NCBI GenBank assembly: GCA_002067365.1
Contig: MVRK01000041.1
Location: forward strand, 1 to 39,008
DNA from: Methanosaeta sp. PtaU1.Bin060
GTDB taxonomy: Archaea; Halobacteriota; Methanosarcinia; Methanotrichales; Methanotrichaceae
DNA: 39,008 bases
Direction of reading: 5' to 3'
This document shows, piece by piece, positions 16,750 through 38,335 of the stretch (position 1 is its first letter; each line of letters begins with the position of its first letter). The position numbers were made by a program, and so were the translations under genes. The notes beneath the pieces were generated by a model. That model was not told the origin of the DNA. It searched no databases and worked only from the letters and a program-made list of their open reading frames with translations.

Positions 16750-16767
16750 AACATCGCCTTAAAAAAT

Positions 16768-20151: not shown

Positions 20152-20261
20152 ATTCTTGCTCCTCTTGAAATTGAGTTGCGTTCTCATTCTATCGAATCCT
20201 GTTTGCATTTTTGATGTTCAAAATTTAGAAGATACATCCCTCAAATCGATTACATCCCATT

Positions 20262-20766: not shown

Positions 20767-20808
20767 TGCATTACACCCATAAATGATCTCAATTGCATTA
20801 GCAACAAT

Positions 20809-22053: not shown

Positions 22054-22505
22054 TCTATCAACTCCTTGCGACGCTATACGTAAAATCGGAGGACAATCTC
22101 CTCCGATTCTTCTTCCATGCATCAACTTCAACATAAGCACAGCCTCAATTTGCAATCGGCGGGTATACAAACGTGCCATGTTTCCCGACATCCCAGCCGA
22201 GGCTCTTATGGAATTTATCCAGATATTCTTGATGAATCGCCACGGGATCTAGATCCCTGAATAACTCTGGGTAGAACAGCTTGGCCAGGTAGGCTACAGA
22301 TATGACGTAATCCGGATTATAGGTGATGTCGTATGCTAGAATCTCCACGTTTCCATTCTCAACAGCTTTGACCTTGGCCAATTCCGGACGATTGAGGATA
22401 TAATCTCTCAAGGCCTTCATGCTCGTGAAATCATCGGTTTCATAGCCTGCGGTTGTGTTATCCCTGTTCCAGCCTGCCATCTTCACGATGATATCAGGAT
22501 TTTCC
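21947..22505 (-). repeat. Tandem-duplication block, copy 1
   Basis: This block of about 559 bp is nearly identical to 23289-23847 (offset 1,342 bp). It covers the start of one binding-protein gene, the intergenic gap and the last third of the gene before it. Only a handful of substitutions are visible in the gap and signal-peptide region. Confidence 0.85.
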
Positions 22506-23395: not shown

Positions 23396-23847
23396 TCTAT
23401 CAACTCCTTGCGACACTATACGTAAAATCGGAGGTGATTGGCCTCCGATTCATCTTCCATGCATCAACTTCAACATAAGCACAGCCTCAATTTGTAATAG
23501 ACGGGTATACAAACGTGCCATGTTTCCTGACATCCCAGCCGAGGCTCTTATGGAATTTATCCAGATATTCTTGATGAATCGCCACAGGATCTAGATCCCT
23601 GAATAACTCTGGGTAGAACAGCTTGGCCAGGTAGGCTACAGATATGACGTAATCCGGATTATAGGTGATGTCGTATGCTAAAATCTCCACGTTTCCATTC
23701 TCAACAGCTTTGACCTTGGACAATTCCGAGCGATTGAGGATATAATCTCTCAAGGCCTTCATGCTCGTGAAATCATCTGTTTCATAGCCTGCGGTTGTGT
23801 TATCCCTGTTCCAGCCTGCCATCTTCACGATGATATCAGGATTTTCC
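23289..23847 (-). repeat. Tandem-duplication block, copy 2
   Basis: Second copy of the block at 21947-22505. Identity ends abruptly inside both coding regions (after the codons for the PDIIVK region), which marks the recombination edges. Confidence 0.85.
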
Positions 23848-24761
23848 TTAATTACCCATTCCGGATCAACTTCTAACGATCCAGTGGCCCGGCTAGCCAT
23901 ATCGGCAGCCAGATTATTGCCGCCAGCCAGCTCGATCTGATAACCTGATGCCCCCATCTTGCTATGAGTCACATAGTCTCCCTGAGCTTCCAGGTAGACT
24001 CTTGTCTTCTTATCTGAAGAAATAGCATCAGTTTTTTCCCCTATATCTTTGAGGATAGGTCCACAGAAGTCAATGTACTCCTGAGCGTTCTCTTCTGCAC
24101 CCAAGACATAGCCCAAGGTCTTCATCTGATTGAATATAGTCCGAGCACGATAGAAATCGAACTTCAATACGGAAATTCCTGGAAGCTTCTTTTCATCACC
24201 CTCAGGAATAACATAGACATCGCTGAGGAAAACATCAGGCTTAAGTGAGAGAACCGCCTCATAGTCGACTTCTCCGTTTGCTACAGTAGGCAAATCCTTG
24301 AACTCAGGCAGGAACACCTGAGAGTATGTCTTTGTAGACTGCGAGAATTTTGAGACACCAATTACTCTGTCCATCGCCCCGAGAATCCTCAGGGCTACAG
24401 CAGGGTCACTTCCACAAACGACAATGCTCTTAACTGGTTCTTTTACGGTTACGGCTCTGTTGGCCCAATCCAGAATTGTGATCTCCTCTTCGGTCCCGTT
24501 TATGATCTGCCTAATTTGCGTTATATCCTTTTCATCGATATTACCGTCATGGTTGGCATCCGTCAGATTTGTAGGGGCTTGTGCTCCTTTGATGACATCC
24601 TGCACATAGGCAACATCTTGCTCGCTTATTGTGTCATCCATGTTGGCATTGCCGAAGACACTCAAAGTAAAATCCGCCGTACTTACAGCTATCGTGTTCG
24701 TCGCTAAAACCAATAGCAAAAGACCGCACAACAGGGGTCTTATTGTCCTAGATTTATTCAT
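23487..24761 (-). CDS. Dockerin-tagged BtuF-class solute-binding protein
   Basis: A 424-residue secreted protein. Signal peptide LLCGLLLLVLATNTIAVSTA, dockerin-like loops GNANMDDTISEQDV and DANHDGNIDEKDI, then the binding domain from DWANRAVTVKEPVKSIVVCG through ILGAMDRVIGVSKF, VDYEAVLSLKPDVF and GASGYQIELAGGNNLAADM to WDVRKHGTFVYP. The ATG has a GGAGGG site 6 nt upstream. Its 3' end shares the duplicated block with the next gene. It follows a methyltransferase gene by 87 bp. Dockerin tags imply attachment to a cohesin-bearing surface component, which is inferred only. Confidence 0.9.
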   Translation of the reverse strand: MNKSRTIRPLLCGLLLLVLATNTIAVSTADFTLSVFGNANMDDTISEQDVAYVQDVIKGAQAPTNLTDANHDGNIDEKDITQIRQIINGTEEEITILDWANRAVTVKEPVKSIVVCGSDPAVALRILGAMDRVIGVSKFSQSTKTYSQVFLPEFKDLPTVANGEVDYEAVLSLKPDVFLSDVYVIPEGDEKKLPGISVLKFDFYRARTIFNQMKTLGYVLGAEENAQEYIDFCGPILKDIGEKTDAISSDKKTRVYLEAQGDYVTHSKMGASGYQIELAGGNNLAADMASRATGSLEVDPEWVIKENPDIIVKMAGWNRDNTTAGYETDDFTSMKALRDYILNRSELSKVKAVENGNVEILAYDITYNPDYVISVAYLAKLFYPELFRDLDPVAIHQEYLDKFHKSLGWDVRKHGTFVYPSITN

Positions 24762-24848
24762 CTCATGCCCTCCATTTTTATAATATATGTTTCATCCAAC
24801 TGGGTCTCTGCTTTTTGATGTTATTATATTAATCTGTATATTATATGA

Positions 24849-25616
24849 TTATGACCTGTGGTTTTCATCTACATTATACCATATTAATGCGTCCTTATGC
24901 CAAGAATTAATCCAGTATCCATTATGGTCTCGCATAATTTGGCCATCTCTCTCAAGGCATTGGAATAAATTTAGCTCAGTATCATCGGAAATAGGATAGC
25001 TCAAACGCAAGATATCTATCATTAAGTCCCAAGGATGAGAGAACATTCTAATAATTATATTTACATTAGCAGGATAATTCAGTTGATATAGATAGTTATA
25101 TAAATTTATATAGTCGCATGAATTATTACAGTAATTTCTGAAAACTTGATCAAAGATCTCATTCAAACCATTTCCAGCCTTTGCGACTAGAAACAAAGTC
25201 TTCTTCGTGTGACATATCATCTTTTGTATTGCGGCCTTTATATCAGGCATTAAGAAGCAGTGCGATGCTATTACTACATCATACAGATCGAGATCTTTTT
25301 TGTTTACCTCCTCCCAACGTTTATTTATTACTTCGATATTATTAAGCTCAGATCTTTCTGCATTTTCTAATAGCCATGCGGTTTGTGCCAATGATGGCTC
25401 TACAATTGTAATATGCTGCACAATTTTTGCAAACGGAATCGTAAACGCTCTGTCACCCGCCCCAATATCAAGCACGCTCGTCATCGGCGGAACCAGTGAA
25501 AGCATACGCTCTAATATGGGCCCAGGATAATTTACATATTTATAATGTGCTTCAATTAATTCTACCGGCGAAAGTCTTTGAGCTTTTTTTATCATCTGAG
25601 TATTATCATTAGACAT
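24849..25616 (-). CDS. Class I SAM-dependent methyltransferase, AT-rich divergent paralogue
   Basis: A 255-residue methyltransferase with motif I SVLDIGAGDRAFTIPFA, the acidic strand ITIVEPSLAQTAWL and YDVVIASHCFLMPDI. It ends KDALIWYNVDENHRS, similar to the KDAMIWY/KDGMIWY endings of the other two intact copies. The third glycine of the SAM loop is replaced (GAGDRA for GAGAGA), and the N-terminal tryptophan-rich segment of the others is missing, so it is a divergent member. The gene is clearly richer in A+T than its neighbours, suggesting separate acquisition. It lies between dockerin-tagged binding-protein genes. Substrate unknown. Confidence 0.82.
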   Translation of the reverse strand: MSNDNTQMIKKAQRLSPVELIEAHYKYVNYPGPILERMLSLVPPMTSVLDIGAGDRAFTIPFAKIVQHITIVEPSLAQTAWLLENAERSELNNIEVINKRWEEVNKKDLDLYDVVIASHCFLMPDIKAAIQKMICHTKKTLFLVAKAGNGLNEIFDQVFRNYCNNSCDYINLYNYLYQLNYPANVNIIIRMFSHPWDLMIDILRLSYPISDDTELNLFQCLERDGQIMRDHNGYWINSWHKDALIWYNVDENHRS

Positions 25617-25659
25617 ATCTACCTATCGTTGTATGGCCCGACTGTAATTCTGCATCAGC

Positions 25660-25716
25660 TCACCAAATTAAATATAAACAGGAACTGATTAAACGCTCCT
25701 GCTTATTTTGATTCAT
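25660..25716 (-). CDS. Tiny ORF (18 codons) with good ribosome binding site
   Basis: Lying between a binding-protein stop and the methyltransferase, this frame has AGGAG 6 nt before its ATG and encodes MNQNKQERLISSCLYLIW. The basic start followed by a hydrophobic, Cys-containing stretch looks like a signal peptide cut short, so a binding-protein relic is the simplest reading. A genuine small peptide cannot be excluded. Confidence 0.3.
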   Translation of the reverse strand: MNQNKQERLISSCLYLIW

Positions 25717-25742
25717 GAATTCTCCTAGGTGCATTGTCCGCT

Positions 25743-26999
25743 TCAGCTTGCAGGTGGCGGATAGACGAATACGCCCTCTTTGGAGACATCCCATTTGAGC
25801 TTCTTGTGGAACTTTTCTATGAACTCCTGATGTATAGCCACAGGGTCCATGTCCTTGAACAGATCTGGATAGAACCATTTGGCCATATATGCTACAGATA
25901 TTATAAAGTCAGGATTGTATGTAATATCGAAAGAGATAACATGTACTCTGTTCTCCTGCACCGCCTTTGCCTTTGCCAGTTCTGGACGGTTCTTGATCTC
26001 ATCCCATACTTTCTGGACATCGCCGATGTCAGATGTCTCATAACCGGAGCTGATGTTTCCTCTGTTCCACCCAGCCATCTTGACTATAACCTGTGGATCC
26101 TCCTTTACAACCCATTCTGCGTCTACTTCCACCCAACCTGTGGCACTGCCTGCAAGATCAGCAGCCATATTGCGGCCGCCTGCCAATGCGATCTGGTAAC
26201 CAGTTGCACCATTGCTTGTATGAGTCACATAAGGATCTGCGGTCTCGATGTAAACGCGAGTTCTCTCATCCTCGGGAAACGTCTCAACCTTCGTTTTAAC
26301 ATCGTCCGTTATCTTCTCGCAAAAGTCAATGTACTTTTGAGCCTCATCTTCTTTGCCCAAAACATATCCCAGATTTTTCATTTGCGAGAAGGCTTGTCGT
26401 GCTCTATAGAAATCATATTTCAGAACTGTTATCCCAGGAAGATTCTTCTCATCTACCTCTTGTGCTGTATAAGCTATCACTACATCTGGTTTTACAGCCA
26501 GCACAGCCTCATAATCCACTTCCCATCCGCCTATGCTGGGAAGGCCTTTGTATTCTGGGAAGAAAACCTTTTCTTCCATACCCTTCTCTACTCCGACGAC
26601 CTTACCTTCTGCGCCAAGTATTCTCAAAGCATCGGCCACATCATTTCCGTAGACTGCAATCCTTTGGACGGGCTCATTTATGGTTACTGTTCTGTTTGCC
26701 GAATCTAAAACTGTGATCTCCTTTTCTGTGCCGTTTATAACCTCTTCGATCTGCTCTATGTCCTTTTCATCGATCTTGCCATCATAGTTGGCATCTGTCA
26801 GGTTTGTAGATGGTTTCGTTCCATGAATAACCTCTAGTGCATAGGCAATATCCCGCTCGTCTATCTTATCATCCATGTTCGCGTTACCATAGATACCTAG
26901 GGTAAAATCTGCAGGTCCATCTGCTAATGCTGATATCGGCATGAAAAGCAATAGCATCAAGATACAAGTAGTCCATATCCCGTTCCTAAGCCGTTTCAT
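25743..26999 (-). CDS. Dockerin-tagged BtuF-class solute-binding protein
   Basis: A 418-residue secreted protein. Signal peptide TTCILMLLLFMPISALADG, EF-hand-like loops GNANMDDKIDERDI and DANYDGKIDEKDI, and a BtuF/FepB-class domain with DSANRTVTINEPVQRIAVYG, ILGAEGKVVGVEKG, WEVDYEAVLAVKPDVV and GATGYQIALAGGRNMAADLA. It ends WDVSKEGVFVYPPPAS. It has not taken part in the near-identical duplication of the two genes downstream. It is the first binding-protein gene after the radical SAM gene at 27058-28110 (58 bp apart), so it could be co-transcribed with the putative peptide-modification locus and may be the receptor for its product. That last point is a guess. Confidence 0.9.
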   Translation of the reverse strand: MKRLRNGIWTTCILMLLLFMPISALADGPADFTLGIYGNANMDDKIDERDIAYALEVIHGTKPSTNLTDANYDGKIDEKDIEQIEEVINGTEKEITVLDSANRTVTINEPVQRIAVYGNDVADALRILGAEGKVVGVEKGMEEKVFFPEYKGLPSIGGWEVDYEAVLAVKPDVVIAYTAQEVDEKNLPGITVLKYDFYRARQAFSQMKNLGYVLGKEDEAQKYIDFCEKITDDVKTKVETFPEDERTRVYIETADPYVTHTSNGATGYQIALAGGRNMAADLAGSATGWVEVDAEWVVKEDPQVIVKMAGWNRGNISSGYETSDIGDVQKVWDEIKNRPELAKAKAVQENRVHVISFDITYNPDFIISVAYMAKWFYPDLFKDMDPVAIHQEFIEKFHKKLKWDVSKEGVFVYPPPAS

Positions 27000-27057: not shown

Positions 27058-28110
27058 TTATGCCTCGATTAAAGTAGGCGGTATTGACGACCTCAAAGGC
27101 GATTTAGATGCTTTCCAGCACATGGGATCTTCTCCATAAAAATTGCCATAGTACAAGAATGCTAATGCCCGGCATCCACCGCATATGACTCTTGATTCGC
27201 AGGCCCCGCAGGAACCTGTTAATAATCCTTGATTGAAATTACGAAATGCATTGATGACAGGAGACGTTCTCCAGATATCGTCTATTCTCTGCAAACGAAG
27301 GTTACCTGCATAGAAGTGGATTATGTCACATGGTGTTACAATCCCATTTGGGGAAATTGCACACCAATCGCCACGAAGAGCACCACATAAAATAGATCTT
27401 TTAGATTCGCCATATCTTTTTATATCTTCATTTTCTTCAAAACCACTATATGCATCACCTCTAATTAATAAATTGGAGCTGTGTTTTATACGAACTCGGT
27501 TTAATATATTTTGAAGAATTTCTTTTTCCTCGAAGCCCAACACGAGATCGTTTTTCCCCAATCCACGACCAATTGGTATAAATTCTGATGCAAGAAACGC
27601 ATCAACATCCATTTCAACGAGTAAATCAGCCAATGCTTCTATATCAGATAACGAGTTCTTTGTAATTGTTGTTCGAGCCTGAACATGCATGCCTGCGTCT
27701 TTTAATAGCTTAATAGCCATTAATGTCCTATCGAATGTGCCCCCGCCCCTTAATGTTTCATGCGTTTTTTTCAACCCTTCTATAGATATCTGAATAGTCC
27801 TAACACTCAAATTTTCTAATATTTTCACTATTTTATCATCAATAAGTGTGCCATTTGTAAGTATTTCAAGGGAAAAATCCATAGAATCTGCTAATTTTAA
27901 AATATCTAAAAAGTCTGGCCTCACAAAAGGCTCACCGCCGCTAAACTCTAACTCAAAAACGCCAAGACCGTATAAATCCCTTAGAAAACCGCTGATCTCT
28001 TTGAAGGTAAGTTCTCTTTCAAGAGGGACTCCAGAACTTGCAAAGCAATGTTCGCATCTCAAATTACATCCGTTTGTAACATTAAAAGAGACCTTCTTTA
28101 GCTCGAACAT
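27058..28110 (-). CDS. Radical SAM/SPASM peptide-modifying enzyme (second of two)
   Basis: A 350-residue radical SAM protein. The CxxxCxxC motif is Cys15, Cys19 and Cys22 (CNLRCEHC), followed by FSGGEPFVRPDF, LTNGTLIDDKIV and VRTIQISIEG. The C-terminal third holds SPASM-like cysteines for auxiliary clusters: LCGALRGDWCAISPNG, TPCDIIHFYAGN and CGACESRVICGGCRALAF, then DPMC. SPASM enzymes commonly install crosslinks or other changes in ribosomal peptides. The gene overlaps the PqqD-like gene by 13 bp, with GAGGAC before the ATG, so the two are translationally coupled. It is a paralogue of 29843-30862. An alternative role resembling tetrapyrrole-modifying AhbC/NirJ enzymes is possible, but the PqqD partner favours a peptide substrate. 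Confidence 0.88.
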   Translation of the reverse strand: MFELKKVSFNVTNGCNLRCEHCFASSGVPLERELTFKEISGFLRDLYGLGVFELEFSGGEPFVRPDFLDILKLADSMDFSLEILTNGTLIDDKIVKILENLSVRTIQISIEGLKKTHETLRGGGTFDRTLMAIKLLKDAGMHVQARTTITKNSLSDIEALADLLVEMDVDAFLASEFIPIGRGLGKNDLVLGFEEKEILQNILNRVRIKHSSNLLIRGDAYSGFEENEDIKRYGESKRSILCGALRGDWCAISPNGIVTPCDIIHFYAGNLRLQRIDDIWRTSPVINAFRNFNQGLLTGSCGACESRVICGGCRALAFLYYGNFYGEDPMCWKASKSPLRSSIPPTLIEA

Positions 28111-28382
28111 AATTCGTCCTCTTCTTCTATAAAATTCTTTGTTTTTAGATCAGCTATAACATTCGTCACATCATCCGTCGCCATAATGGGATCGATTCCA
28201 TAGTGTTGAGAATAATCGCTTATAATCTCTTCGAATGGCTTGGTTCCTATCAATAGCCAGATATACTTGGCACTTCCATTTAATTCCATAAGTAATCCTT
28301 CCTTGTAATCATAAAGTAGAAACTTCGTGTCTAGATCCCTTGTTTTTATACCATTTCTCTTTTTATATTTTTTGATACACAT
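28098..28382 (-). CDS. PqqD-like RiPP recognition protein
   Basis: A 94-residue stand-alone PqqD-family protein. Such winged-helix domains (RiPP recognition elements) hold the leader of a precursor peptide for a radical SAM partner. The match runs through TRDLDTKFLLYDYKEGLLME, then LNGSAKYIWLLIGTKPFEEI and DDVTNVIADLKTKNFIEE, which corresponds to the usual order of beta wing, LNxTAxxIW helix, and the late DV...L..L.....I helix. The N-terminal ten residues are very basic. It lies 47 bp after the small peptide gene and overlaps the radical SAM gene downstream, the classic precursor-recognition-enzyme order. Confidence 0.85.
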   Translation of the reverse strand: MCIKKYKKRNGIKTRDLDTKFLLYDYKEGLLMELNGSAKYIWLLIGTKPFEEIISDYSQHYGIDPIMATDDVTNVIADLKTKNFIEEEDELCSS

Positions 28383-28429: not shown

Positions 28430-28510
28430 CTATTTGACATTTACGCAGAGAGTATGGACAGAGCCGACTATGTAGCTCATTTTTATTTCGGGCTTAACGT
28501 ATTTCTCCAT
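28430..28510 (-). CDS. Putative RiPP precursor peptide (26 aa)
   Basis: This frame is too short for ordinary gene finders. A GAGGTG site lies 6 nt before the ATG and a strong BRE/TATA lies about 35-45 nt upstream, so it appears to be a real, well-expressed unit. The product begins MEKYVKPEIK, in which Tyr4, Pro7 and Ile9 reproduce the YxxPx(L/I) leader pattern known to bind PqqD-like recognition domains. The rest reads MSYIVGSVHTLCVNVK, with Tyr13, His19 and Cys22 as candidate targets of modification or metal ligands. It sits between the MFS exporter and the PqqD-like gene on the same strand. I know no described peptide with this sequence. Coding status is well supported by context; the nature of the product is inferred. 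Confidence 0.72.
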   Translation of the reverse strand: MEKYVKPEIKMSYIVGSVHTLCVNVK

Positions 28511-28542: not shown

Positions 28543-28557
28543 ACATATAAATCTTTC
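28543..28557 (-). promoter_or_regulatory. Strong BRE/TATA promoter of the peptide gene
   Basis: The minus strand reads CGAAAGATTTATATG, close to the archaeal BRE plus TATA consensus. The predicted start near 28525 gives a leader of about 15 nt carrying the ribosome binding site. A dedicated promoter for the small gene inside a gene cluster implies higher expression than for the enzymes, as is usual for precursor peptides. Confidence 0.6.
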
Positions 28558-28592: not shown

Positions 28593-29846
28593 TTATGCAT
28601 ATTGCGTTGTTGTGTGAGGCCTTTTGCTAAAATTCCCAAGAATAATTAATGAGATCATGAGAAATAATACAGATAAAATAAAAGGATAAAACGGATTGAT
28701 TTCAAAAAGCATCCCTCCGACCACAATACTTAACGCGCTTTCTATTCCAATTACTGTCTGCATTAATCCTAATGAGGTTCCCCTGTTCTCCTCTACAGTA
28801 ACATCCGCCATGAATATGAGGTGCATGTACTGTTCTAAAAAAATGGTGACTAGCATAATCACACAGAAAAACGCAACAATTAATAAATTATTGTTAAATA
28901 CATTAAAGAACATTGTGCTTAATAAAGTTAGAATCAAGAAGCTAGACAGTGCATGCGCTCTATCCACCTTATCGATCAAAGGACCAATAGCTATTTGTGA
29001 TACTAAATATATAACCATTGCAATGCTGAATACCATAGCTGCAAGAGCATCGCTGGCTTTAGAAACATGGACTAGAAAGAGAACATAATATGTGCTCAGA
29101 ATCATCCTGGCAGGGGTCTCCGCCAGATAATAAGCAAAAAAAAGACGATAATCGCGGCTGGATGCCCGTGCAGTCTTCCACAAACTTTCATGGAAATGGA
29201 TGAAGTTCGGCGATGAGCAGGGAAGGGGTTTTTTATCTTCAAGATAATAATTAAATAAAAATACAGTTATAATAGCGAGGATAAAATATACCATAAATCC
29301 AGATCTTACTCCTTGATAAAGTCCCATCGCAGAAGTGATAAATGCCAACATTGAAGAGGAGAGGATAGTCGTCGACGTAATTAATACCCACATAATTGAG
29401 TACACCTTGCCTCGCTCATCACTTGTTGTCTCGTCAGCAAGAAGAGCGTCTATCCCCGGCTCAGATAACGTTCTTGCTCCAAGAAGTATAATCCCTGGAA
29501 CCGCCCAAATCCAAGTGTCTGCAACTATAAACCAAGGAATTGAGAGGGATAAAATGAGGTATGATGCTACAATTATTTTTTTTCTTCCGAACATATCGGC
29601 CAAATATCCACCAATTAAAGTAACAAATAAAAGCAGGGAATTTCCACCTAATATATAACCGATAATGCTGGGTGTAGCACCCAATTCCTCAAGATATCTT
29701 GTAAATAGGGGAGCAGTAAGGCCGTTTCCTATTGCAATGAGGGTGTTACATACGATCAATATCGTTGTATTTCTCTTTATCGCTTTTATGGTTGCGCTAT
29801 ATGATTCAAAGTGCGATCTTATAATAGCCTTCATTGACACTTTCAT
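28593..29846 (-). CDS. MFS transporter, candidate peptide exporter
   Basis: A 417-residue major facilitator protein with about twelve membrane helices. It shows the family loop GGYLADMFGRKKII between helices 2 and 3 (the GxxxDxxGRK motif), LEELGATPSIIGYILGGNSL at the N-terminus and LIDKVDRAHALSS at the equivalent loop of the second half. The ATG at 29846 overlaps the stop of the radical SAM gene (ATGA); an upstream start at 29873 is less likely. Its place between a radical SAM enzyme and the peptide gene suggests export of the modified peptide, but MFS substrate cannot be read from sequence. Rich in A+T compared with the flanking chromosome. Confidence 0.88.
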   Translation of the reverse strand: MKVSMKAIIRSHFESYSATIKAIKRNTTILIVCNTLIAIGNGLTAPLFTRYLEELGATPSIIGYILGGNSLLLFVTLIGGYLADMFGRKKIIVASYLILSLSIPWFIVADTWIWAVPGIILLGARTLSEPGIDALLADETTSDERGKVYSIMWVLITSTTILSSSMLAFITSAMGLYQGVRSGFMVYFILAIITVFLFNYYLEDKKPLPCSSPNFIHFHESLWKTARASSRDYRLFFAYYLAETPARMILSTYYVLFLVHVSKASDALAAMVFSIAMVIYLVSQIAIGPLIDKVDRAHALSSFLILTLLSTMFFNVFNNNLLIVAFFCVIMLVTIFLEQYMHLIFMADVTVEENRGTSLGLMQTVIGIESALSIVVGGMLFEINPFYPFILSVLFLMISLIILGNFSKRPHTTTQYA

Positions 29847-30862
29847 AACATTTTCTTCATTACATGATAACATGTAAAGTCCTCAGAATATATATCTCCA
29901 GAGTGGAGTATGGCTAAAGCACGGCAGTATCCACCACACACACCTTTATGCTTGCAGGTACCGCAAGCACCCTTCAAAAGCTCTGGCTTAAACTCTCTAA
30001 AAAGCTTGAAAATAGGGGCATTCTCCCAAATCGTTTGGATTTTGTTTTTTCTCACGTTGCCGGCGTAGAAGGTCATTATCTCACATGGACTAACTACGCC
30101 ATTTGGCTTGATAAGGCACCATGTCTTTGCACACGGACACATTATCGTCCCGCTTTCTCTCAATTTCTGGAAAATATCTCCCTCAAAGGAGCCGCATGGG
30201 TCCGCGGTAATCTCTATTTTATGGCCGTAAATTTTATAAATATTTAATATTGTCCTATGCAAAGTGGACATCTCCACTGCGTTAAGCATTAAGTCATCCA
30301 TGTAAGCCATACCGCGGCCAGCAGGAAAGAACCTTACAACTCCAAATTTATATGCTCCTTTCTCAACTGCAATATCGGCAAGATCTTTTAGGTCTCCAAG
30401 AGATTCTCTCGTTGCCGTTGTCCTTACTGCAAATTTTATTCCGTGGTCTCGAAGAGCTTCCATGGCGGTTATTGCAGGCTCAAAGGTTCCTTTTCCTCTG
30501 AGGCGCTCATGAGCATTTGAAAGGCCATCGAGACTAATTTGTACATGTTTTATAGAATAATCAGATAGTCGACTTGCTTTTGCATCATCAATAAGTGTGC
30601 CGTTCGTGAGCAGCACTATCTCAAAGTCCAACGACTGAGTGGCATCGAGAACTTCCAAAAGATCAGGCCTTAAAAAAGGTTCGCCACCTCCGAAATCTAT
30701 CTCCATCGTACCCATGTCCTGCAACTCCTTTAGGACTCTTCTTATCTCCTCGTAACTAAGCTCGTCTGCAAAGCTCTCGCCTGCAAAAGAGAAGCAATGC
30801 TTGCATCTCAGATTGCAGGCATTAGTAAGTTCAAGGGTCACTGTGGCAGGACAATAGATCAT
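29843..30862 (-). CDS. Radical SAM/SPASM peptide-modifying enzyme (first of two)
   Basis: A 339-residue radical SAM protein: Cys16, Cys20 and Cys23 (CNLRCKHC) for the SAM cluster, then IDFGGGEPFLRPDLLEV, LLTNGTLIDDAKAS and HVQISLDGLSNAHERLRGKG. The SPASM-like C-terminus has CPCAKTWCLIKPNG, SPCEIMTFYAGN, CGTCKHKGVCGGYCRAL and a final Cys in DFTC. The ATG at 30862 (GGTGAT upstream) is preferred to a TTG at 30874. Its stop overlaps the MFS start. It is related to 27058-28110 but closer to the relic at 16525-16749. With the PqqD-like protein and the peptide gene it forms a compact RiPP-type locus; the chemistry (thioether, C-C crosslink or other) is unknown. Confidence 0.88.
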   Translation of the reverse strand: MIYCPATVTLELTNACNLRCKHCFSFAGESFADELSYEEIRRVLKELQDMGTMEIDFGGGEPFLRPDLLEVLDATQSLDFEIVLLTNGTLIDDAKASRLSDYSIKHVQISLDGLSNAHERLRGKGTFEPAITAMEALRDHGIKFAVRTTATRESLGDLKDLADIAVEKGAYKFGVVRFFPAGRGMAYMDDLMLNAVEMSTLHRTILNIYKIYGHKIEITADPCGSFEGDIFQKLRESGTIMCPCAKTWCLIKPNGVVSPCEIMTFYAGNVRKNKIQTIWENAPIFKLFREFKPELLKGACGTCKHKGVCGGYCRALAILHSGDIYSEDFTCYHVMKKML

Positions 30863-30901: not shown

Positions 30902-30946
30902 TCATTTTTGTCTCAGACCATATACAGATCGTCTAGATTTATTCAT
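30902..30946 (-). CDS. 14-codon ORF in the leader of the radical SAM-MFS operon
   Basis: This frame has a very good GGAGGT site 6 nt before its ATG and encodes MNKSRRSVYGLRQK. Its first five codons (MNKSR) are the same as the start of the binding-protein gene at 24761, so the operon seems to have taken over the promoter and first codons of a lost binding-protein gene. It could act as a leader peptide, or be a relic. Confidence 0.35.
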   Translation of the reverse strand: MNKSRRSVYGLRQK

Positions 30947-30997: not shown

Positions 30998-31011
30998 TTA
31001 TAAATCTTTCT
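30998..31011 (-). promoter_or_regulatory. BRE/TATA promoter of the radical SAM-MFS operon
   Basis: The minus strand reads GAAAGATTTATAAC, sharing the AAAGATTTATA core with the peptide-gene promoter at 28543-28557. The predicted start near 30975 precedes the 14-codon frame. The shared core may mean joint regulation. Confidence 0.55.
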
Positions 31012-31063: not shown

Positions 31064-32047
31064 TTACGCCGCCTTACCACCCCGAATTCTCGGATCAAGT
31101 ACAGCATAGAGCGCATCAGCAATGAAATTCGCAGCCAGCACACAAACCGCGATCACAAGGAAGCTTCCGTGAAGCAGAGGATAGTCCCGCGCCAGCACTG
31201 CATCGTAGACGAGCGTCCCCATGCCACCCCAGGAGAAGACTATCTCCACGAGCAACGCCCCGGATACCATAAATCCGAAATCGAGGGCGATCACTGTAAC
31301 CAGCGGCAACAGAGAGTTCTTCAGCACATGCCGGAACAAGACGTCCCTCTCCGAAAGCCCCTTGGCACGCGCTGTGAGAACGAAGCCCTCTCCCAGGACC
31401 TGAAGAACTGAGCCGCGCATGATGAAGTAGTTATAGGAGGCGCCAAACAATGTCAGCACAAAAGTCGGCAGCGCCATGTGCCATAAGACATCTTTCAGCT
31501 TCTCTGCACCCGCCAGGCCGCCGCTCGTAATGCCGCTCAAAGGGAAAAGGCCCAGGTAGAAGGCGAAGAGGAGAACGAAGATCATGGCCAGCCAGTAGTG
31601 AGGCATGGAGTAGATGAATAGGAAGAGCGATGTGACTGCGGTGTCCATGCCCCTCCCGTGCCTCCAGCCAGCCACCGAGCCGAGAACAATGCCAAGTATT
31701 GCGCCCAGAATAACCGAGGGTATCAGCAGAACGAAGGTCCACCCCATCTTGTAGGCGATCACATCCCATACCGGCTGAGAGTAGTGAAAGGAGTAGCCGA
31801 AGTTGCCCTGCACCAGGTTCTGCAGGTAAGAGATGTACTGCTCAGGCAGAGGGCGATCGAGGCCGTACTGGGCCTTCAGCTCTGCCACAAGCTCAGGCGA
31901 GCGGTAGTAGACCTCCTCTCCCAGCACGCTTATGAAGGGATCACCCGGCATCATCCTCGGAATGATGAAGAGAAGTGTCACTATGATGAACAGGGAGACG
32001 GAGTACCGAATAGCCTGGCGGGCTATATAGCCTGTGCGGTCAGCCAT
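31064..32047 (-). CDS. Orphan DppB/NikB-type ABC permease
   Basis: A 327-residue permease with about six membrane helices. It begins MADRTGYIARQAIRYSVSLF, has MMPGDPF in the first periplasmic loop, the transport signature GFVLTARAKGLSERDVLFRH and ends LDPRIRGG. An AAGGAT site lies 7 nt before the ATG, which follows the methyltransferase stop by 7 bp. There is no NikC-like partner of its own; the complete NikABCDE set upstream could supply ATPases. The 3' third is a near copy of the permease at 12817-13806. Confidence 0.9.
   Translation of the reverse strand: MADRTGYIARQAIRYSVSLFIIVTLLFIIPRMMPGDPFISVLGEEVYYRSPELVAELKAQYGLDRPLPEQYISYLQNLVQGNFGYSFHYSQPVWDVIAYKMGWTFVLLIPSVILGAILGIVLGSVAGWRHGRGMDTAVTSLFLFIYSMPHYWLAMIFVLLFAFYLGLFPLSGITSGGLAGAEKLKDVLWHMALPTFVLTLFGASYNYFIMRGSVLQVLGEGFVLTARAKGLSERDVLFRHVLKNSLLPLVTVIALDFGFMVSGALLVEIVFSWGGMGTLVYDAVLARDYPLLHGSFLVIAVCVLAANFIADALYAVLDPRIRGGKAA
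31090..31423 (-). repeat. Long direct repeat, permease 3' part (copy 2)
   Basis: Partner of 12843-13176. Similarity falls off sharply beyond the ATG-like codon after AGTCCTTCAGG-type signature DNA, although the proteins stay related. A degraded third copy is recognisable at 20262-20567. Confidence 0.75.
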
Positions 32048-32054: not shown

Positions 32055-32864
32055 TCAATCCTTCTGGTACCAGATCATCCCATCTTTATATCTTCTTTTC
32101 ACCCAAACACCATTATCCAGTTTTACAAGCCGACCAGTTGCAGCCAGATAATCCATCAGCCTCTGCTCCAGCCCCCGCGTGAAATCGTAGCTGCTCCTCA
32201 GTATCTCCATCTGCATCTCCAGGGGAATCTGGTAGATTCGGGTCATGATCTCCAAGTTGGCGGTATAGCCCATCTGATGCAACATGTTGTAAAGATAGAT
32301 GTACTCAGAATCGGATTTCTCCTGGCCGAAGACTTTCTCGTAAACGTCAGCAAAGCCATGGTCCACAAGAGAGACCAGGAAGAGAGACCCCTTTGTCACA
32401 TCAAGCATCTTCTGCAGCGCTTCCCCGATTTCGGGCATATGGAAGCAGTAGGCAGCGTTGACCAGATTGTAGCTCTCCAGCTCTGCCTGTCCCACGTCCT
32501 GCCAGCGCTTGTTGATGATCTCAATGTTCTCAAGGCCCTCACGATCCGCCAGCCTCATCATCCGGGCGATTTGACCTTTCGAGGGCTCTACCACTGTCAC
32601 CTTTCGTGCCTCTTTGGCTAAAGGGATAGCATAGGCTCCGGCCCCGGCTCCTATGTCCAGGACCGATGAGTCTGAGCTAACGAGCCTGAGCATACGACCT
32701 ATGAGGTGGCCTGGGTAGCCAGCTAGTCGGTTATATTCCTCGTTTCTGTCGCCAAATTTGTAGTTGTCCCAATATTCCTCACTGGTGATGCCCTTATTCA
32801 TCAATTCCTGAGACCAGGAGGAGCTTTCGCGGAATTTCTTCCATTCATCAGACCAATTGATCAT
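32055..32864 (-). CDS. Class I SAM-dependent methyltransferase (transport-linked)
   Basis: A 269-residue class I methyltransferase: INWSDEWKKFRESSSW, GITSEEYWDNYKFGDRNEEY, motif I SVLDIGAGAGAYAIPLA, VTVVEPSKGQIARM, YNLVNAAYCFHMPEI, and the ending KDGMIWYQKD. The ATG at 32864 has TGAGGTG 6 nt upstream; a GTG three codons earlier is unlikely. It lies 37 bp after the NikE-like ATPase gene and 7 bp before a permease, so it belongs to the nickel-type transporter operon. A methyltransferase inside such an operon points to modification of a chelator or of the transported ligand, but the substrate is not known. Confidence 0.88.
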   Translation of the reverse strand: MINWSDEWKKFRESSSWSQELMNKGITSEEYWDNYKFGDRNEEYNRLAGYPGHLIGRMLRLVSSDSSVLDIGAGAGAYAIPLAKEARKVTVVEPSKGQIARMMRLADREGLENIEIINKRWQDVGQAELESYNLVNAAYCFHMPEIGEALQKMLDVTKGSLFLVSLVDHGFADVYEKVFGQEKSDSEYIYLYNMLHQMGYTANLEIMTRIYQIPLEMQMEILRSSYDFTRGLEQRLMDYLAATGRLVKLDNGVWVKRRYKDGMIWYQKD

Positions 32865-32901
32865 GTTAGTCACCTCAGTGTCATCATCACTGACTATCCC
32901 G

Positions 32902-33843
32902 CTAGCCGGTATCGCAAACTAAATGGCAAGAGACGCAATGGCCAGATGAAATCTCCGTTGTCGTCGGAATTGTTGTCTCACATATCCTTTTTTTAAGAGG
33001 GCATCTCGTGTGAAATCTACAGCCCTTAGGAATTTCGCTCTGGCTTGGCATTTCGCCTTTCAGAATAATCCTTTTCCTTCTATCACTGCCAATAGCCGGA
33101 ATTGCGGATAGCAAAGCTTGAGTATATGGATGCGCAGACCTTTCAAAGATATCTTCAGTACGCCCCATCTCCACGATCTTGCCCATATTCATTACCGCTA
33201 TTCTGTCAGCCATCATCCGGACTATATTCAAGTTATGAGATATGAATAGATAGCTTACACCATAATCCCTTTGTATCTTCTTAAGCAAATATAGAATCTG
33301 CGCTTGCACTGAGAAGTCCAGAGATGATGCGGGCTCATCGGCTACGATCAGCTCGGGCTTCAATGCTATGGCTCTTGCCACTCCGATTCTCTGTCTCTGT
33401 CCGCCCGATAATTCATGAGGATATCTCTCAAGCAATTCCTCATTCAGATCGACCTTCTCCATTAGTTCCCGGATTGTATCCCCGTTAAAAAAGATCCGAT
33501 TCGCTCGAAACGGCTCTGTAATCAGATTACGAACGCTCATCCTTGGATCCAGAGACGAATCAGCGTTTTGAAATATAATTTGCATTTTTCTTTTTAGTTC
33601 TCCATATCGTTTACCTCTAAGATTCATGATGTTCAAACCTTTAAAAAGAATCTCCCCGCTAGTCGGCTCAATTAAGCGGAGGATTGACCAACCAACTACA
33701 GTTTTTCCGCATCCGCTTTCCCCCACAATTGCAAGTGTCTCGCCCTTGTCCAGCCTCAAAGATACTCCATCCACTGCATGAATGTAATGCTTATTGAATA
33801 ATCCAACTGAGAAGCTCTTTTTCAGGTCTTTAACCTCAAGCAG
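32902..33843 (-). CDS. nikE: Nickel/peptide ABC transporter ATPase (NikE/DppF-like)
   Basis: ABC ATPase with Walker A GESGCGKT, signature LSGGQRQRIGVARAI, Walker B LIVADEPASSLD and the switch His in FISHNLN. The Cys-containing C-terminal extension of the oligopeptide/nickel group follows (CRFHTRCPLKKRICE and GHCVSCHLVC). The first usual start is a GTG at 33774, but it would remove the conserved first strand and A-loop, which are encoded in frame upstream (LLEVKDLKKSFSV, then YIHAVDGVSL). Between the in-frame stop at 33859-33861 and that strand there are only ATC, ATT or CTG codons. A non-standard start (CTG 33843 or ATT 33846), coupled to the overlapping nikD stop and preceded by GAGGTG, is therefore likely. 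It pairs with NikD to power the permease. Confidence 0.87.
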   Translation of the reverse strand: MLEVKDLKKSFSVGLFNKHYIHAVDGVSLRLDKGETLAIVGESGCGKTVVGWSILRLIEPTSGEILFKGLNIMNLRGKRYGELKRKMQIIFQNADSSLDPRMSVRNLITEPFRANRIFFNGDTIRELMEKVDLNEELLERYPHELSGGQRQRIGVARAIALKPELIVADEPASSLDFSVQAQILYLLKKIQRDYGVSYLFISHNLNIVRMMADRIAVMNMGKIVEMGRTEDIFERSAHPYTQALLSAIPAIGSDRRKRIILKGEMPSQSEIPKGCRFHTRCPLKKRICETTIPTTTEISSGHCVSCHLVCDTG

Positions 33844-34777
33844 AATAGTGATGGCACCTCACCCCCCGTGTGCTAAAATAGGTCATTTTTGGCCTCAATT
33901 TTTTGCAAATATCACTGCATTTATCGCACCTAGGATGGAATCTGCACCCATCAAGGAGGTCGGTCAGATTGGGAACAGATCCGCCGATCGGGTGAAATCC
34001 CGACTTAGATATTGAGCCAAGCAGGGCCTTTGAATATGGATGCATGGGTGAATGGAAGAATTCGTAAATGGGCGCGCGCTCAACTATCTCTCCCGCATAC
34101 ATTACAGCCAGAGAATCGCACATCTCCCAGACCACTCCAAGGTCATGAGTTATCAGGAACAGGGATATGTTGTTCTCTTGTGAGACCTTTTTTAGCAGGT
34201 CCAGTATCTGTGCCTGAGTAATAAGATCTAAGGAGGTAGTAGGCTCATCTGCAACTATGATCGAAGGCCTGAATGCTAGTGCCATAGCAATCATCACCCT
34301 TTGCTGCATTCCTCCACTGAACTGATGAGGATACTCGCCGTATCTTTGGGGAGAAATGCCCACATGTACCATAAGCTCTACTGCCTTCTCTTTCGCCTCA
34401 TTTTTTCGCAAATGCTCATGAATTCTCAGCGCTTCAGCGATCTGATCTCCTATAGGGAATACGGGATTAAGACAAGTTCCAGGTTGCTCGAATATCATGG
34501 AGATCTCATTACCCCTTACGCCCCTCATCTCCTTTTCATTCAAGTTCAGGAGATCTCGTCCTTTGAATATCACTTCACCACTGATAATAGCATTCTCTGG
34601 CAGCAAATTAAGAATAGCGAGGGCAACCACAGATTTTCCACATCCGCTTTCCCCTATGAGACAAAGTGATTCCCGTTCCCGAATCATAAGATCAATGCCA
34701 TTACATGCATCCACCAAACCGGCATCTGTTCTGAACTTAACATTCAAATCGCGTATCTCAAGCAAAGACGCAGCCAT
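33836..34777 (-). CDS. nikD: Nickel/peptide ABC transporter ATPase (NikD/DppD-like)
   Basis: A 313-residue ATPase: SLLEIRDLNVKFRTDAG, Walker A at residues 42-49 (GESGCGKS), Q-loop MIFEQPGTCLNP, signature FSGGMQQRVMIAMAL, Walker B IIVADEPTTSLD and LITHDLG. The C-terminal oligopeptide-type extension includes CRFHPRCDKCSDICKKLRP. Its ATG overlaps the nikC stop (TGATG). It is the partner of the NikE-like ATPase in a heteromeric ABC importer. Confidence 0.92.
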   Translation of the reverse strand: MAASLLEIRDLNVKFRTDAGLVDACNGIDLMIRERESLCLIGESGCGKSVVALAILNLLPENAIISGEVIFKGRDLLNLNEKEMRGVRGNEISMIFEQPGTCLNPVFPIGDQIAEALRIHEHLRKNEAKEKAVELMVHVGISPQRYGEYPHQFSGGMQQRVMIAMALAFRPSIIVADEPTTSLDLITQAQILDLLKKVSQENNISLFLITHDLGVVWEMCDSLAVMYAGEIVERAPIYEFFHSPMHPYSKALLGSISKSGFHPIGGSVPNLTDLLDGCRFHPRCDKCSDICKKLRPKMTYFSTRGVRCHHYSA

Positions 34778-35619
34778 CAGATCTCCACCTTGGCTTTTAT
34801 CCGCGGGTCTAGGGCATCTCTCAATCCGTCTCCCAGAAAGTTGAATGCCATTACGGTTATCATAATCATCAGCCCCGGAAAGATCATCAAAGTAGGCATC
34901 GATTCCATGAAAGGCTTACCTGCTTCTAACATTGACCCCCATTCGGGCGTTGGAGGCTGCGCCCCAAGGCCGAGAAAGCTCATCCCACATAGCCCCAGGA
35001 TAACATTTCCCATATCAAGTGTGGCCAGAACGACTATCGGAGCTATTGCATTAGGTACTATATGATCAAAGACAACTCGGAGATCACTGCACCCTATCGC
35101 CTTAGAAGAGACGACGAAGTCTTGTTCCTTTACCAGAAGAACTGAAGATCTAATCAGCCTAGAATATCCCACCCAACCAGTCACAGTCATTGCAATAATA
35201 AGATTTTCAAATGTCGGGCCTAAGATTCCCGCAATGGCTATAGTTATGATCAAGCTGGGAAATGCGAGCATTATATCGACGATTCTCATGAGTGTCTCAT
35301 CGACGATGCCACCGAAATAGCCAGATGCTGTCCCCACAATAAGTCCGATGATCAGGCTGATCATAGTTATTAAGGCTGCAGCAGTCATGGATATACGTGT
35401 GCCATAAATGATCCGACTCAGATAGTCTCTGCCCAAATCATCTGTTCCCATGGGATGTTCAAGTGACGGAGGAGACAAACGTTCTTGCAGGTTGATCTTC
35501 ATTGGATCATAGGGGGATACGCTAGGCGCGCAGATGGCAATCACCAACAGTATGATTATTGTAGATAGACCAATCAATGCCAATTTGTCGTCCAAGATCG
35601 ATCGAGCACTTTTAAACAA
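34777..35619 (-). CDS. nikC: Nickel-type ABC permease (NikC-like)
   Basis: A 280-residue permease with the N-terminal OppC-type helix, then HPMGTDDLGRDYLSRIIYGT and six or so membrane spans. The segment VLATLDMGNVILGLCGMSFL followed by GLGAQPPTPEWG closely follows the corresponding stretch of E. coli NikC (LATLDIG, GMSFLGLG, PTAEWG), which favours the nickel branch over the general peptide branch. It ends FLGDGLRDALDPRIKA. It lies 2 bp after nikB and overlaps nikD, so the genes form one transcript. Confidence 0.9.
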   Translation of the reverse strand: MFKSARSILDDKLALIGLSTIIILLVIAICAPSVSPYDPMKINLQERLSPPSLEHPMGTDDLGRDYLSRIIYGTRISMTAAALITMISLIIGLIVGTASGYFGGIVDETLMRIVDIMLAFPSLIITIAIAGILGPTFENLIIAMTVTGWVGYSRLIRSSVLLVKEQDFVVSSKAIGCSDLRVVFDHIVPNAIAPIVVLATLDMGNVILGLCGMSFLGLGAQPPTPEWGSMLEAGKPFMESMPTLMIFPGLMIMITVMAFNFLGDGLRDALDPRIKAKVEI

Positions 35620-35621: not shown

Positions 35622-36575
35622 CTATCTCTCCAGCTTAGGAACATCATATCTTATCCGAGGATCAAAGACCGAATATGCGATATCTATTGATAAGCTTATT
35701 AATAAAAATATTAATGATATCAAAAATACGAAACCTTGGATGACCGGGAAATCCCGGGCATAAATGGAATCAACCAAGAAACGTCCAACACCTGGCCATG
35801 AGAATATCGTCTCTACAATGACTGTTCCACCAGCGAGATGACCAAGATGGATCCCGAAGATGGTGATCACAGGTATCAATGCATTTCTGAACGCGTGATG
35901 CCAGATCACTTGAACCTCATTCACTCCTTTGGCCCTAGCAGTTCGTATATAATTTTGGCGCAAGACCTCAAGCATGCTCGCCCTGGTCAGTCTCATTATA
36001 GATGCGGCAGAGCCTATGCATAAAGTCGTGATTGGAAGAACTAGGCTCATAGAGCTTCCATAACTGAGGACAGGAATCAGGCGGAGATGAAGCGATATAA
36101 AAAATATCAGCAATAGGCCTAACCAGAAGCTTGGCATAGATACGCCTATCAAAGCGAAAAATCTTAAGATGTGATCAACAACCGAGTTATGCATGCTGCT
36201 TGATACAATGCCTAAGGGAACGGCAATAAGCAATGCCAAAATCTCTGCGATCAGAACCAGCTGAAACGTAAGAGGGAACCTGGCAAAAAATTCTTCTATC
36301 ACCGGTCTGCCCGTTCTAAATGAGCGCCCCATGTCACCTTTCAAGACATTCCCGAGCCAATTGCCATATTGAATGTATATCGGATCGTTGAGACCGTGCT
36401 CAGCACGAAAAGCCTCTACAGCAGCCGCATCAGGATTTACGGTTCCTAACTGCAGCCTCAACAGGATCTCAGCAGGGTCTCCGGGCGAAATATAAAGCAA
36501 AGAGTAAGAGAGCAGTGAAATCCCAATCATCACAGGCACGGCTGCCAGCATCCTCTTTATTATGTACGAATTCAT
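35622..36575 (-). CDS. nikB: Nickel-type ABC permease (NikB-like)
   Basis: A 317-residue permease beginning MNSYIIKRMLAAVPVMIGIS, with ISPGDPAEILLRLQLG in the first external loop, GVSMPSFWLGLLL, the transport signature YIRTARAKGVNEVQVIWHHA and ETIFSWPGVGRFLVDSIYAR followed by DFPVIQGF. These blocks line up with E. coli NikB (GVSMPNFWLA, IFAWPGVGRY, DYPVIQ). The ATG at 36575 has GAGG upstream; a TTG at 36587 is not needed. It is distinct from the two orphan permeases in the island. Confidence 0.9.
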   Translation of the reverse strand: MNSYIIKRMLAAVPVMIGISLLSYSLLYISPGDPAEILLRLQLGTVNPDAAAVEAFRAEHGLNDPIYIQYGNWLGNVLKGDMGRSFRTGRPVIEEFFARFPLTFQLVLIAEILALLIAVPLGIVSSSMHNSVVDHILRFFALIGVSMPSFWLGLLLIFFISLHLRLIPVLSYGSSMSLVLPITTLCIGSAASIMRLTRASMLEVLRQNYIRTARAKGVNEVQVIWHHAFRNALIPVITIFGIHLGHLAGGTVIVETIFSWPGVGRFLVDSIYARDFPVIQGFVFLISLIFLLISLSIDIAYSVFDPRIRYDVPKLER

Positions 36576-36706
36576 TTTGTGCCTCAAATGGCTCTAAATA
36601 GCGGATCTAGGAAAACTCACAGGCATTGATATGAAAGGCAGAGAACATGAGAAAAAGACCATTGGCCGGCCTTCACTCATGCCTCGTCTACCTTTCCCCA
36701 ACGCAT

Positions 36707-38335
36707 TTAGACCTGTACTTTATTCAGGTTGAGGATGTCTTCGGTGGGTGGTATCTCAAATCCCTTTATATTTGAACTCATGGCATAGATCCTCGCATCC
36801 TGGTACAGAGGAATCACCAGGGCATTCTCATCCATATACGAAAAGATGCGGTCGTATATCTCTTGGCGCGTGGTCTCATCAGTGCTCGCGATCACTTCAT
36901 CGATCATTTTATCAAACGATGGATCCGAATACCCGAGTTCTCCTCCTGTATACCAATTTCCTCTCAGAGTACATGGCGGATCATATATCGATCCCCATGG
37001 GCTGTATATGTACATATCATAATCATGGGTAGTGGTCACGGCATCCCACCATGCTCCACTCTCAACAGATACGATATTTACCTTGATGCCAACATCTTTG
37101 AGGTAGGATTGAATAATTTCTGCCAGAGGCTGCTGATTGGATACACCCAGGCCCGCAGACGGCGTTACTGATGGCGCGGGGATAATTAATTTTGCCTCAA
37201 GGGATTTTCCATCATGCTCTCGGATTCCATCGCCATTATCGTCCTTCCATCCAGCCTCTTCCAGAAGTTGTCTGGCTTTATCTGGATCATATTGATAGCC
37301 TTTCACGACTCCCTTTTCATAGGACTCTCGATAATATGGCACAGTTGTTGAAAAAGGCCCTTTCGCCTCAGTGTAAATTCCTTCAAAGATAGTCTTGCAG
37401 ATCTCTTCTTTATTCAGGGCATAGCCTATTGCTTGGCGCACATTGGCATCGTTGTAGGGCTCATGATTGTAATTTGGAACGACATAGTAGACCATGTCAC
37501 CTTCGTTTGTGACTACAGAAATATCCGACATCTTTTCTAAATCATCCACGTCGCCGGGATCAATCGTAGATAATCCGGATCCTTCAAGGTCGATCTCCCC
37601 TGACTTAAGGGCCATTAGCCTCGTAGCATCATCTGGGACCAGCTTGAAGATCAGATTTTGGAGCTTTGGCTTGTCGCCCCAATAATTCTCGTTTCTGACC
37701 AAGGTATACTCCTGATCTCTTTTATATTCCTGGAATTGAAATGACCCAGTGCCCACGGGTCTTATGAGTGTGCCATTCGGGTCACCATATGGCTCCACAG
37801 AACTGGGACTCATGAGTCTTTGCGGTCGGCACAGCATGAGTTCCTGCAAAATGGGATAAGACGGTTTTGCATATTGGAATGTGATAGTGTAAGGGTCTGC
37901 GATAACTATATCAGTAAAATCATCCATGCTCATCCAGTTGGCTGAACTCTTTGCCTTCATCCTCTCCATGGAAAATTTCACCGCAGTTGCATTAAATGGC
38001 GTGCCGTCTGAAAATTCCACGCCTTTCTTCAGATGAAATGTATAGGATTTTCCATCCGGTGAGATCTCCCATGATTCAGCAAGACCTGGAAGTGGTTTCC
38101 CATATGCACCATACTCGACAAGAGCATCATAAATAAAACCATATATTGGCATGGGCGCATCATACGCATTTGCATCCAGGCCACCTGTATTTTCTTGTTC
38201 CTCGTTTACGTTCATATGACGTTCTGCCAAGCCGATCACCAATGTGCCATCAGAACTCCCACCAGCGCCGGAGAAGCAAGTTAGCATTAGTCCGACTAAG
38301 ACAATTCCAACAAACAAACTGACCTTAGCTCTCAT
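36707..38335 (-). CDS. nikA: Nickel-type solute-binding protein (NikA-like)
   Basis: A 542-residue exported family-5 binding protein. After a signal peptide (FVGIVLVGLMLTCFSGAGG) it reads TLVIGLAERHMNVNEE, FHLKKGVEFSDGTPFNATAV, RPVGTGSFQFQEYKRDQE, VRQAIGYALNKEEICKTIFE and YDMYIYSPWGSIYDPPCTL. FSDGTPF and the PWG-YDP segment resemble NikA proteins that bind nickel complexed with small organic chelators. It is the first gene of the nikABCDE operon, 130 bp before nikB, with GGTGGA 6 nt before its ATG. Nickel is needed for coenzyme F430 and CO dehydrogenase/acetyl-CoA synthase in methanogens, which makes such a transporter sensible; peptide transport is the alternative. Confidence 0.88.
   Translation of the reverse strand: MRAKVSLFVGIVLVGLMLTCFSGAGGSSDGTLVIGLAERHMNVNEEQENTGGLDANAYDAPMPIYGFIYDALVEYGAYGKPLPGLAESWEISPDGKSYTFHLKKGVEFSDGTPFNATAVKFSMERMKAKSSANWMSMDDFTDIVIADPYTITFQYAKPSYPILQELMLCRPQRLMSPSSVEPYGDPNGTLIRPVGTGSFQFQEYKRDQEYTLVRNENYWGDKPKLQNLIFKLVPDDATRLMALKSGEIDLEGSGLSTIDPGDVDDLEKMSDISVVTNEGDMVYYVVPNYNHEPYNDANVRQAIGYALNKEEICKTIFEGIYTEAKGPFSTTVPYYRESYEKGVVKGYQYDPDKARQLLEEAGWKDDNGDGIREHDGKSLEAKLIIPAPSVTPSAGLGVSNQQPLAEIIQSYLKDVGIKVNIVSVESGAWWDAVTTTHDYDMYIYSPWGSIYDPPCTLRGNWYTGGELGYSDPSFDKMIDEVIASTDETTRQEIYDRIFSYMDENALVIPLYQDARIYAMSSNIKGFEIPPTEDILNLNKVQV

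Follow-up and report, generated by a model that had tools for sequence, protein, structure and literature searches.

Natural products of the RiPP class modified by radical SAM/SPASM enzymes are already known as a kind, and several described systems resemble the locus considered here. The cofactor pathways of PQQ and mycofactocin combine a PqqD/RRE chaperone with a radical SAM/SPASM maturase and a short precursor. In the GeoRSP and SynChlorMet (Scm) systems a PqqD-family protein likewise lies beside radical SAM/SPASM proteins, which in SynChlorMet are of two types. Precursors of actinobacterial lasso peptides carry a conserved leader motif, YxxPxL (PMC6784204). In triceptides, the three-residue cyclophane RiPPs associated with radical SAM/SPASM enzymes, the spacing of the crosslinks is that of a His and a Leu two residues further on (PMC11002830). 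The staphylopine gene set comprises biosynthesis genes, a gene for an export protein (CntE) and an importer of the NikA/Opp family (PMC9598555).

The window, the whole stretch of 39,008 nucleotides that was analyzed from a Methanosaeta genome, contains a 26-codon frame on the minus strand which is almost certainly a genuine coding gene. Its product is very probably the precursor of a new RiPP modified by the neighboring radical SAM/SPASM enzymes, a variant of the kind named above whose chemistry and function are unproven. What would be new is a precursor family without an NCBIfam model together with a two-enzyme maturation system, in a methanogen of the Methanotrichales and with matching copies in Firmicutes. 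The initial annotation knew of no described archaeal RiPP with this arrangement, and we too found no published description of it in the open-access literature, outside which most subscription papers lie. The features of the central part of the locus are the following.

28430..28510, minus strand: precursor peptide gene, 26 aa, MEKYVKPEIKMSYIVGSVHTLCVNVK; an open frame conserved in the bacterial loci L169 and L063
28517..28522, minus strand: ribosome-binding site GAGGTG, 6 nt 5' of the precursor ATG
28546..28557, minus strand: BRE/TATA-like box GAAAGATTTATA of the precursor-PqqD-rSAM1 unit
28098..28382, minus strand: discrete RRE/PqqD-like protein, predicted to bind the leader (PF05402, E 1.8e-10)
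27058..28110, minus strand: rSAM1, radical SAM/SPASM maturase 1 (PF04055 and PF13186; CX3CX2C and SPASM cysteines)
28593..29873, minus strand: MFS transporter, probable exporter (PF07690, E 1.5e-31)
29843..30862, minus strand: rSAM2, radical SAM/SPASM maturase 2 (PF04055 and PF13186)
30999..31010, minus strand: second copy of the GAAAGATTTATA box, upstream of rSAM2-MFS

The coding span of MEKYVKPEIKMSYIVGSVHTLCVNVK runs over 28433-28510 on the minus strand, with its ATG at 28510 and its stop at 28430-28432; a start at the in-frame GTG of 28519 would lengthen the product by three residues, but this codon is located within the GAGGTG site. The frame lies between the MFS gene upstream and the PqqD gene downstream, and the latter overlaps the rSAM1 gene by 13 bases. 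Both the coordinates and the Pfam matches agree with the initial annotation, which had described a frame with its own promoter and a correctly spaced GAGGTG, flanked on one side by a gene for an MFS exporter and on the other by a PqqD-like gene, which overlaps one for a radical SAM/SPASM protein. The window has 287 ATG-initiated ORFs of 18-60 aa, and among them the precursor alone has the pattern Y..P.[ILVM] within its first 14 residues; its leader motif reads YVKPEI and its conserved core HTL(C/G)V. The two radical SAM enzymes share 42% identity, and the CX3CX2C of the radical SAM core and the SPASM cysteine patterns are intact in them. The GAAAGATTTATA box occurs exactly twice in the window, while none of 100 dinucleotide shuffles had two copies. 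Since the same box precedes both the precursor and rSAM2, we infer that the precursor-PqqD-rSAM1 and rSAM2-MFS transcription units are probably under promoters of one type. Between the second box and rSAM2 there is also a 14-codon frame, MNKSRRSVYGLRQK (30902-30946, minus strand), with a GGAGGT site; inspection by eye showed no counterpart ahead of rSAM2 in the bacterial loci L063 and L167, and it may thus be a chance frame or a leader ORF. Rfam gave no match at the gathering score.

The counterparts outside archaea were recovered by scanning GTDB genomes with a three-sequence radical SAM alignment, an earlier scan with the single rSAM1 sequence having returned nothing. The scan led to L063, a locus of a Peptococcaceae MAG (JAILZP010000020.1), in which the order is rSAM2, MFS, substrate-binding protein (SBP), a 26-aa frame, PqqD, rSAM1, methyltransferase, permeases and SBP. 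Its peptide is MMRGYIKPVVRIRRVACTPHTLGVSR, with the site GGAGGAGGTGAG. Identity to the window is 49% for rSAM1, 41% for the MFS protein, 41% for the methyltransferase and 53% for the permease, with rSAM2 in the range of about 40-53%. Relative to the window, an SBP is inserted between MFS and precursor, and the methyltransferase and permease lie on the opposite side. A phylum search around this MAG yielded two further genomes of the same phylum, G828 and G728. The G828 peptide, MRKYVKPVIKVTRVLAAPHTLGVSDV, is encoded on the short contig L169, where an SBP and a partial rSAM2 precede it and the start of PqqD follows; another contig of this genome (L168) has the 3' part of PqqD and rSAM1 at its end. 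In this genome PqqD is thereby divided over two contigs, the 5' part terminating one (at the start of L169) and the 3' part lying near the end of the other (L168), and the gene may have been interrupted by a mobile element or by an assembly break. G728 keeps rSAM2, MFS, SBP, methyltransferase and ABC genes, and neither precursor nor PqqD nor rSAM1 was found in it (its locus is L167), a joint absence that is expected if these three form one unit. A KYIKPPS stretch in G728 was considered as a precursor and rejected; it is antisense to the SBP of that genome and was taken as a chance occurrence.

In a tree of the radical SAM enzymes, rSAM1 of the window groups with those of L063 and L168 (support 100/99), and rSAM2 with those of L063, L167 and L169 (support 91/94). 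As each of the two types spans the archaeon and the bacteria, their distribution implies, by inference from the sequences, horizontal transfer of a cluster holding both. Members of the precursor family are rare. The closest relatives of the system are in Firmicutes, so that it is not specifically archaeal.

Two other features of the bacterial loci were observed. Upstream of rSAM2 in L063 (1065-1131, plus strand) and L167 (8829-8887, minus strand) a hairpin of similar form stands before a U-run, with z-scores of -5.3 and -6.5; the hairpins share the letters CGAAGGTTT..CCTGCCG..AAGGCA, found once per genome in those two genomes, and may represent an attenuator, with no match in Rfam. A toxin-antitoxin-like pair (AbrB-like and PIN-like, by sequence only) flanks the cluster on one and the same side in both G728 (L167:5647-6329) and G828 (L168:6781-7460).

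With merely 26 codons, and no sequence relative in 49 other genomes of its order, the frame might be suspected to have arisen by chance, as an ORF within the 5' leader of a PqqD-radical SAM transcript, the enzymes acting on another substrate. The comparison of the peptides leaves very little room for this proposal. Ungapped local scores are 62 between window and L169, 44 between window and L063 and 87 between L063 and L169, and in each case none of 5000 shuffles scored as high (shuffle means about 16-17 in the two comparisons with the window). In a separate scan of whole loci L169 was again strong (57, the highest shuffle reaching 30) and L063 alone was weak (35, the highest shuffle reaching 32), so that the case of L063 is carried by its position and by its link through L169. 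Between the window and L169 ORFs, 12 of 26 residues are identical, eight of these 12 have silently different codons, and the differences by codon position number 10/9/17; these distributions and silent changes indicate a coding pattern. The frame is therefore real: two bacterial genomes with a matching gene set encode cognate peptides in the corresponding position, and strong ribosome-binding sites also speak against chance. The initial annotation would have been refuted by a lack of conservation of the frame or by substitutions without protein constraint, and the L063 and L169 peptides speak against the first of these, the 10/9/17 pattern of the comparison with L169 against the second.

Only four loci carry a precursor (window, L063, L169 and the archaeal G021, discussed below), and a YxKPx(I/V) leader is kept in four of four, the final position being Ile in the window and Ile or Val in the other three peptides. 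The window motif YVKPEI differs from the actinobacterial lasso motif in having Ile in place of Leu. The PqqD-like protein was modeled with AlphaFold2 from a three-sequence alignment (mean pLDDT 92.3). A Foldseek search of the PDB with this model had as its top match TbiB1 with leader peptide (5V1V, TM 0.80/0.85), followed by TfuB1 with leader (6JX3) and PqqD (5SXY). A sequence profile of the protein finds the same proteins, and the lasso PqqD model gives a weak match (E 1.4e-4). The PqqD-like protein is thus predicted to fold like the lasso RREs that have been solved with bound leader; there are no binding data. Together with the motif in all four loci, this predicted fold is consistent with the earlier proposal of YVKPEI as the leader recognition motif, its binding being inferred. 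Of the three tail residues that had been singled out along with it, His19 belongs to the conserved HTL, and Tyr13 and Cys22 are not conserved.

The YxxPx(I/L) leader, the weak match to the lasso model and the structural proximity of the PqqD-like protein to the lasso B1 proteins (TbiB1 and TfuB1, TM 0.80-0.85 to 5V1V) could be taken to mean that the locus is itself a lasso peptide system. This is scarcely credible, as two radical SAM enzymes are present and no asparagine-synthetase-like cyclase or B2 peptidase was seen among the window ORFs of at least 100 aa (read from the translations, not all of which were run against Pfam).

The curated families of NCBIfam do not accommodate the system. 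The four precursor peptides have no match in NCBIfam at E up to 10, and no curated NCBIfam model reaches its cut-off with the radical SAM or PqqD proteins. Against the GeoRSP models (TIGR04302/TIGR04303) the PqqD-like protein scores 23.5 of 100 and the radical SAM enzymes 121 and 154 of 400; against ScmD, ScmE and ScmF of SynChlorMet (TIGR04248/04250/04251) the values are 15.5 of 100, 143 and 157 of 400, and 99 and 112 of 400. Despite the similar association of proteins in these two systems, the window proteins therefore miss every curated cut-off widely. The corresponding bit scores for PQQ are 18.6 against 46 for PqqD (TIGR03859), and 103 and 128 against 381 for PqqE (TIGR02109). For the mycofactocin maturase MftC (TIGR03962) they are 132 and, for rSAM2, 183.5 against 265.

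The discrete PqqD-like protein, the PqqE/MftC-like character of the radical SAM/SPASM enzymes and the 183.5 bits of rSAM2 against the mycofactocin model leave the alternative that the product is an intracellular redox cofactor like PQQ or mycofactocin, in which PqqD would present the peptide, the radical SAM enzymes would crosslink it and hydrolysis would free the cofactor. We regard this as improbable: every one of the curated cut-offs just given is missed, PqqB/PqqC, MftE and dedicated dehydrogenases are not seen in the window or in L063, and the partners that are conserved are instead genes for Opp/Nik import and for an MFS protein. Nor is a Glu-Tyr or Val-Tyr pair conserved in the core. 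Compared with PQQ and mycofactocin the window thus has another precursor and conserved transport genes, and no cofactor-processing partners were seen.

The locus does have the sequence features that characterize a radical SAM/SPASM RiPP, namely a conserved short precursor, radical SAM cores with SPASM cysteines, and an RRE/PqqD-like protein, of which the binding is inferred. Because a conserved coding gene with a YxKPx(I/V) leader lies beside a predicted RRE/PqqD protein and two radical SAM/SPASM enzymes, an RiPP precursor, as first proposed, remains the best-supported reading of the frame, with neither transcript nor peptide nor product observed as yet. In the mechanism that we propose, the PqqD-like protein would hold the leader through Y4-x-K6-P7-x-I9, and rSAM1, from the transcription unit of the precursor, and rSAM2, behind the identical promoter box, would modify C-H bonds, by one or two crosslinks or otherwise, in a short core around His19-Thr20-Leu21. 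The conserved His-x-x (H-T-L) in a short core recalls the triceptides, whose mark is a bond from an aromatic residue to the third residue made by a 3-CyFE enzyme and in which Leu at the third position is unusual; of this the window shows the HTL motif only, and no triceptide maturase family was among the matches reported. Because of this atypical Leu, a triceptide-type crosslink at HTL is speculation. No dedicated leader peptidase was seen at the cluster, and the leader may be removed by a host protease encoded outside it. The MFS protein would then export the product, the direction of transport not being known from sequence. Its return may involve the genes further upstream.

31064..32047, minus strand: Opp/Nik-type ABC permease (PF00528; 53% identity to the L063 permease)
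32055..32873, minus strand: class I SAM-dependent methyltransferase (PF13649; 41% identity to the L063 methyltransferase)
32902..33774, minus strand: ABC ATPase, probably OppF-type (from translated sequence and position, no Pfam run)
33836..34777, minus strand: OppD-type ABC ATPase (PF00005 and PF08352)
34777..35619, minus strand: Opp/Nik-type ABC permease C (from translated sequence and position, no Pfam run)
35622..36587, minus strand: Opp/Nik-type ABC permease B (from translated sequence and position, no Pfam run)
36707..38335, minus strand: NikA/CntA-like SBP (TIGR02294 nikA 326.7 bits, CntA 278.5 bits)

These Opp/Nik-family ABC transporters might retrieve the product, probably in metal-bound form (with nickel or cobalt, for example). 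As in staphylopine, biosynthesis genes are combined with a probable exporter and a NikA/Opp-family ABC importer with a CntA-like SBP; unlike the opine chemistry of CntKLM, that of the window would be radical SAM chemistry on a ribosomal peptide. The SBP at 36707-38335 reaches neither the NikA cut-off (326.7 of 393 bits) nor that of CntA (278.5 of 800). In the bacterial clusters whose flanks were examined (L063/L177 and L167) there are OppD/F-like ATPases and ExbB-like and CobN-like genes, and DUF2149 is matched in G728 and similar by sequence in the L063 MAG. On account of the staphylopine-like gene set, the NikA/CntA-like SBP, the Peripla_BP_2 SBPs and the metal-related neighbors, a metal carrier is the leading guess as to function. 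That the product is a metallophore with a staphylopine-like cycle of export and import is an inference which we put forward as a real possibility, falling short of an even chance. More tentative still, and as a whole rather unlikely, is the full scheme of a ribosomal metallophore with two radical SAM/SPASM enzymes, a crosslinked His-Thr-Leu core, MFS export, recovery of the product together with nickel or cobalt through an ABC transporter of NikA/CntA-like type, and horizontal transfer between a methanogen and anaerobic Firmicutes. Should the product carry nickel or cobalt, it would bear on metal acquisition by methanogens that depend on nickel enzymes and compete with neighboring bacteria.

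The tie of the SBP and methyltransferase to the peptide rests on position and co-conservation only, since the same families also occur in ABC groups of the window without radical SAM genes. Over 9840-26999 (minus strand) the window has an array of Peripla_BP_2 SBPs, five matched by Pfam and at least one further SBP resembling them in sequence; two of the SBPs have weak dockerin-like matches. SBP_bac_5 proteins, class I methyltransferases and a permease are interspersed in the array.

SBPs and permeases of the Opp family also import peptides in signaling systems. The RiPP could accordingly be an extracellular signal or an antimicrobial, with the Opp-type importer taking up a pheromone or being a mere neighbor, and the patchy spread over archaea and bacteria of common anoxic habitats would fit such a role. 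We consider it unlikely without dismissing it. No regulator or immunity gene common to the clusters was seen, the core is kept between the archaeon and the bacteria, as would be unusual if it served as a weapon or as a private signal, and the neighbors are genes of metal- and cobalamin-type transport and CobN-like genes.

A peptide search of 49 other genomes of the Methanotrichales gave no significant match outside the genome itself; the conservation for which the initial annotation had proposed to look there was not found by this means, and it was through PqqD that a locus sharing only the leader emerged. A non-significant match in G036 (E 0.43) was rejected, having an internal stop and no matching neighbors. 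Within the order, the one further genome with a PqqD of clearly similar sequence is G021 (Methanothrix sp. bin.308), of the same genus, and an alignment of PqqD run against 238 genomes of the class gave only distant PqqDs apart from those of the window and G021. G021 has a 31-aa frame, MDKKYIKPSVTDISSAAKFGCTISHGHSGGF, with a strong AGGAGGA site, nearly touching the PqqD start codon. Its cluster is shorter, PqqD abutting a radical SAM gene that is followed by an MFS gene; the MFS protein is not a close relative of that of the window, and the radical SAM enzyme falls outside both the rSAM1 and rSAM2 clades. Its peptide shares the leader (KKYIKPSV) and not the core, and 13 of 5000 shuffles reach its score, so that its membership in the family is not established by sequence.

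Among the 113 genomes of the class of G238 only G238 itself was found. A plasmid search gave only radical SAM relatives below 60% identity (the best match listed had 32%), and a scan of IMG/VR only distant radical SAMs. In a phylum search, six other archaeal genomes had radical SAMs at 261-282 bits, with longer frames (479-554 aa).

Elsewhere in the order we observed PqqD followed by a long asparagine-synthetase-like protein (e.g. MSAICGI..HRGPD) at L039, L040 and L037 (G009:C11, G036:C237 and G021:C178, respectively), neighbors which suggest archaeal lasso-type clusters. Upstream of another PqqD, a 60-aa Cys-containing frame with PYVPPKAVF (L044:1065-1247, minus strand; G038:C229) is a candidate precursor of a different kind.
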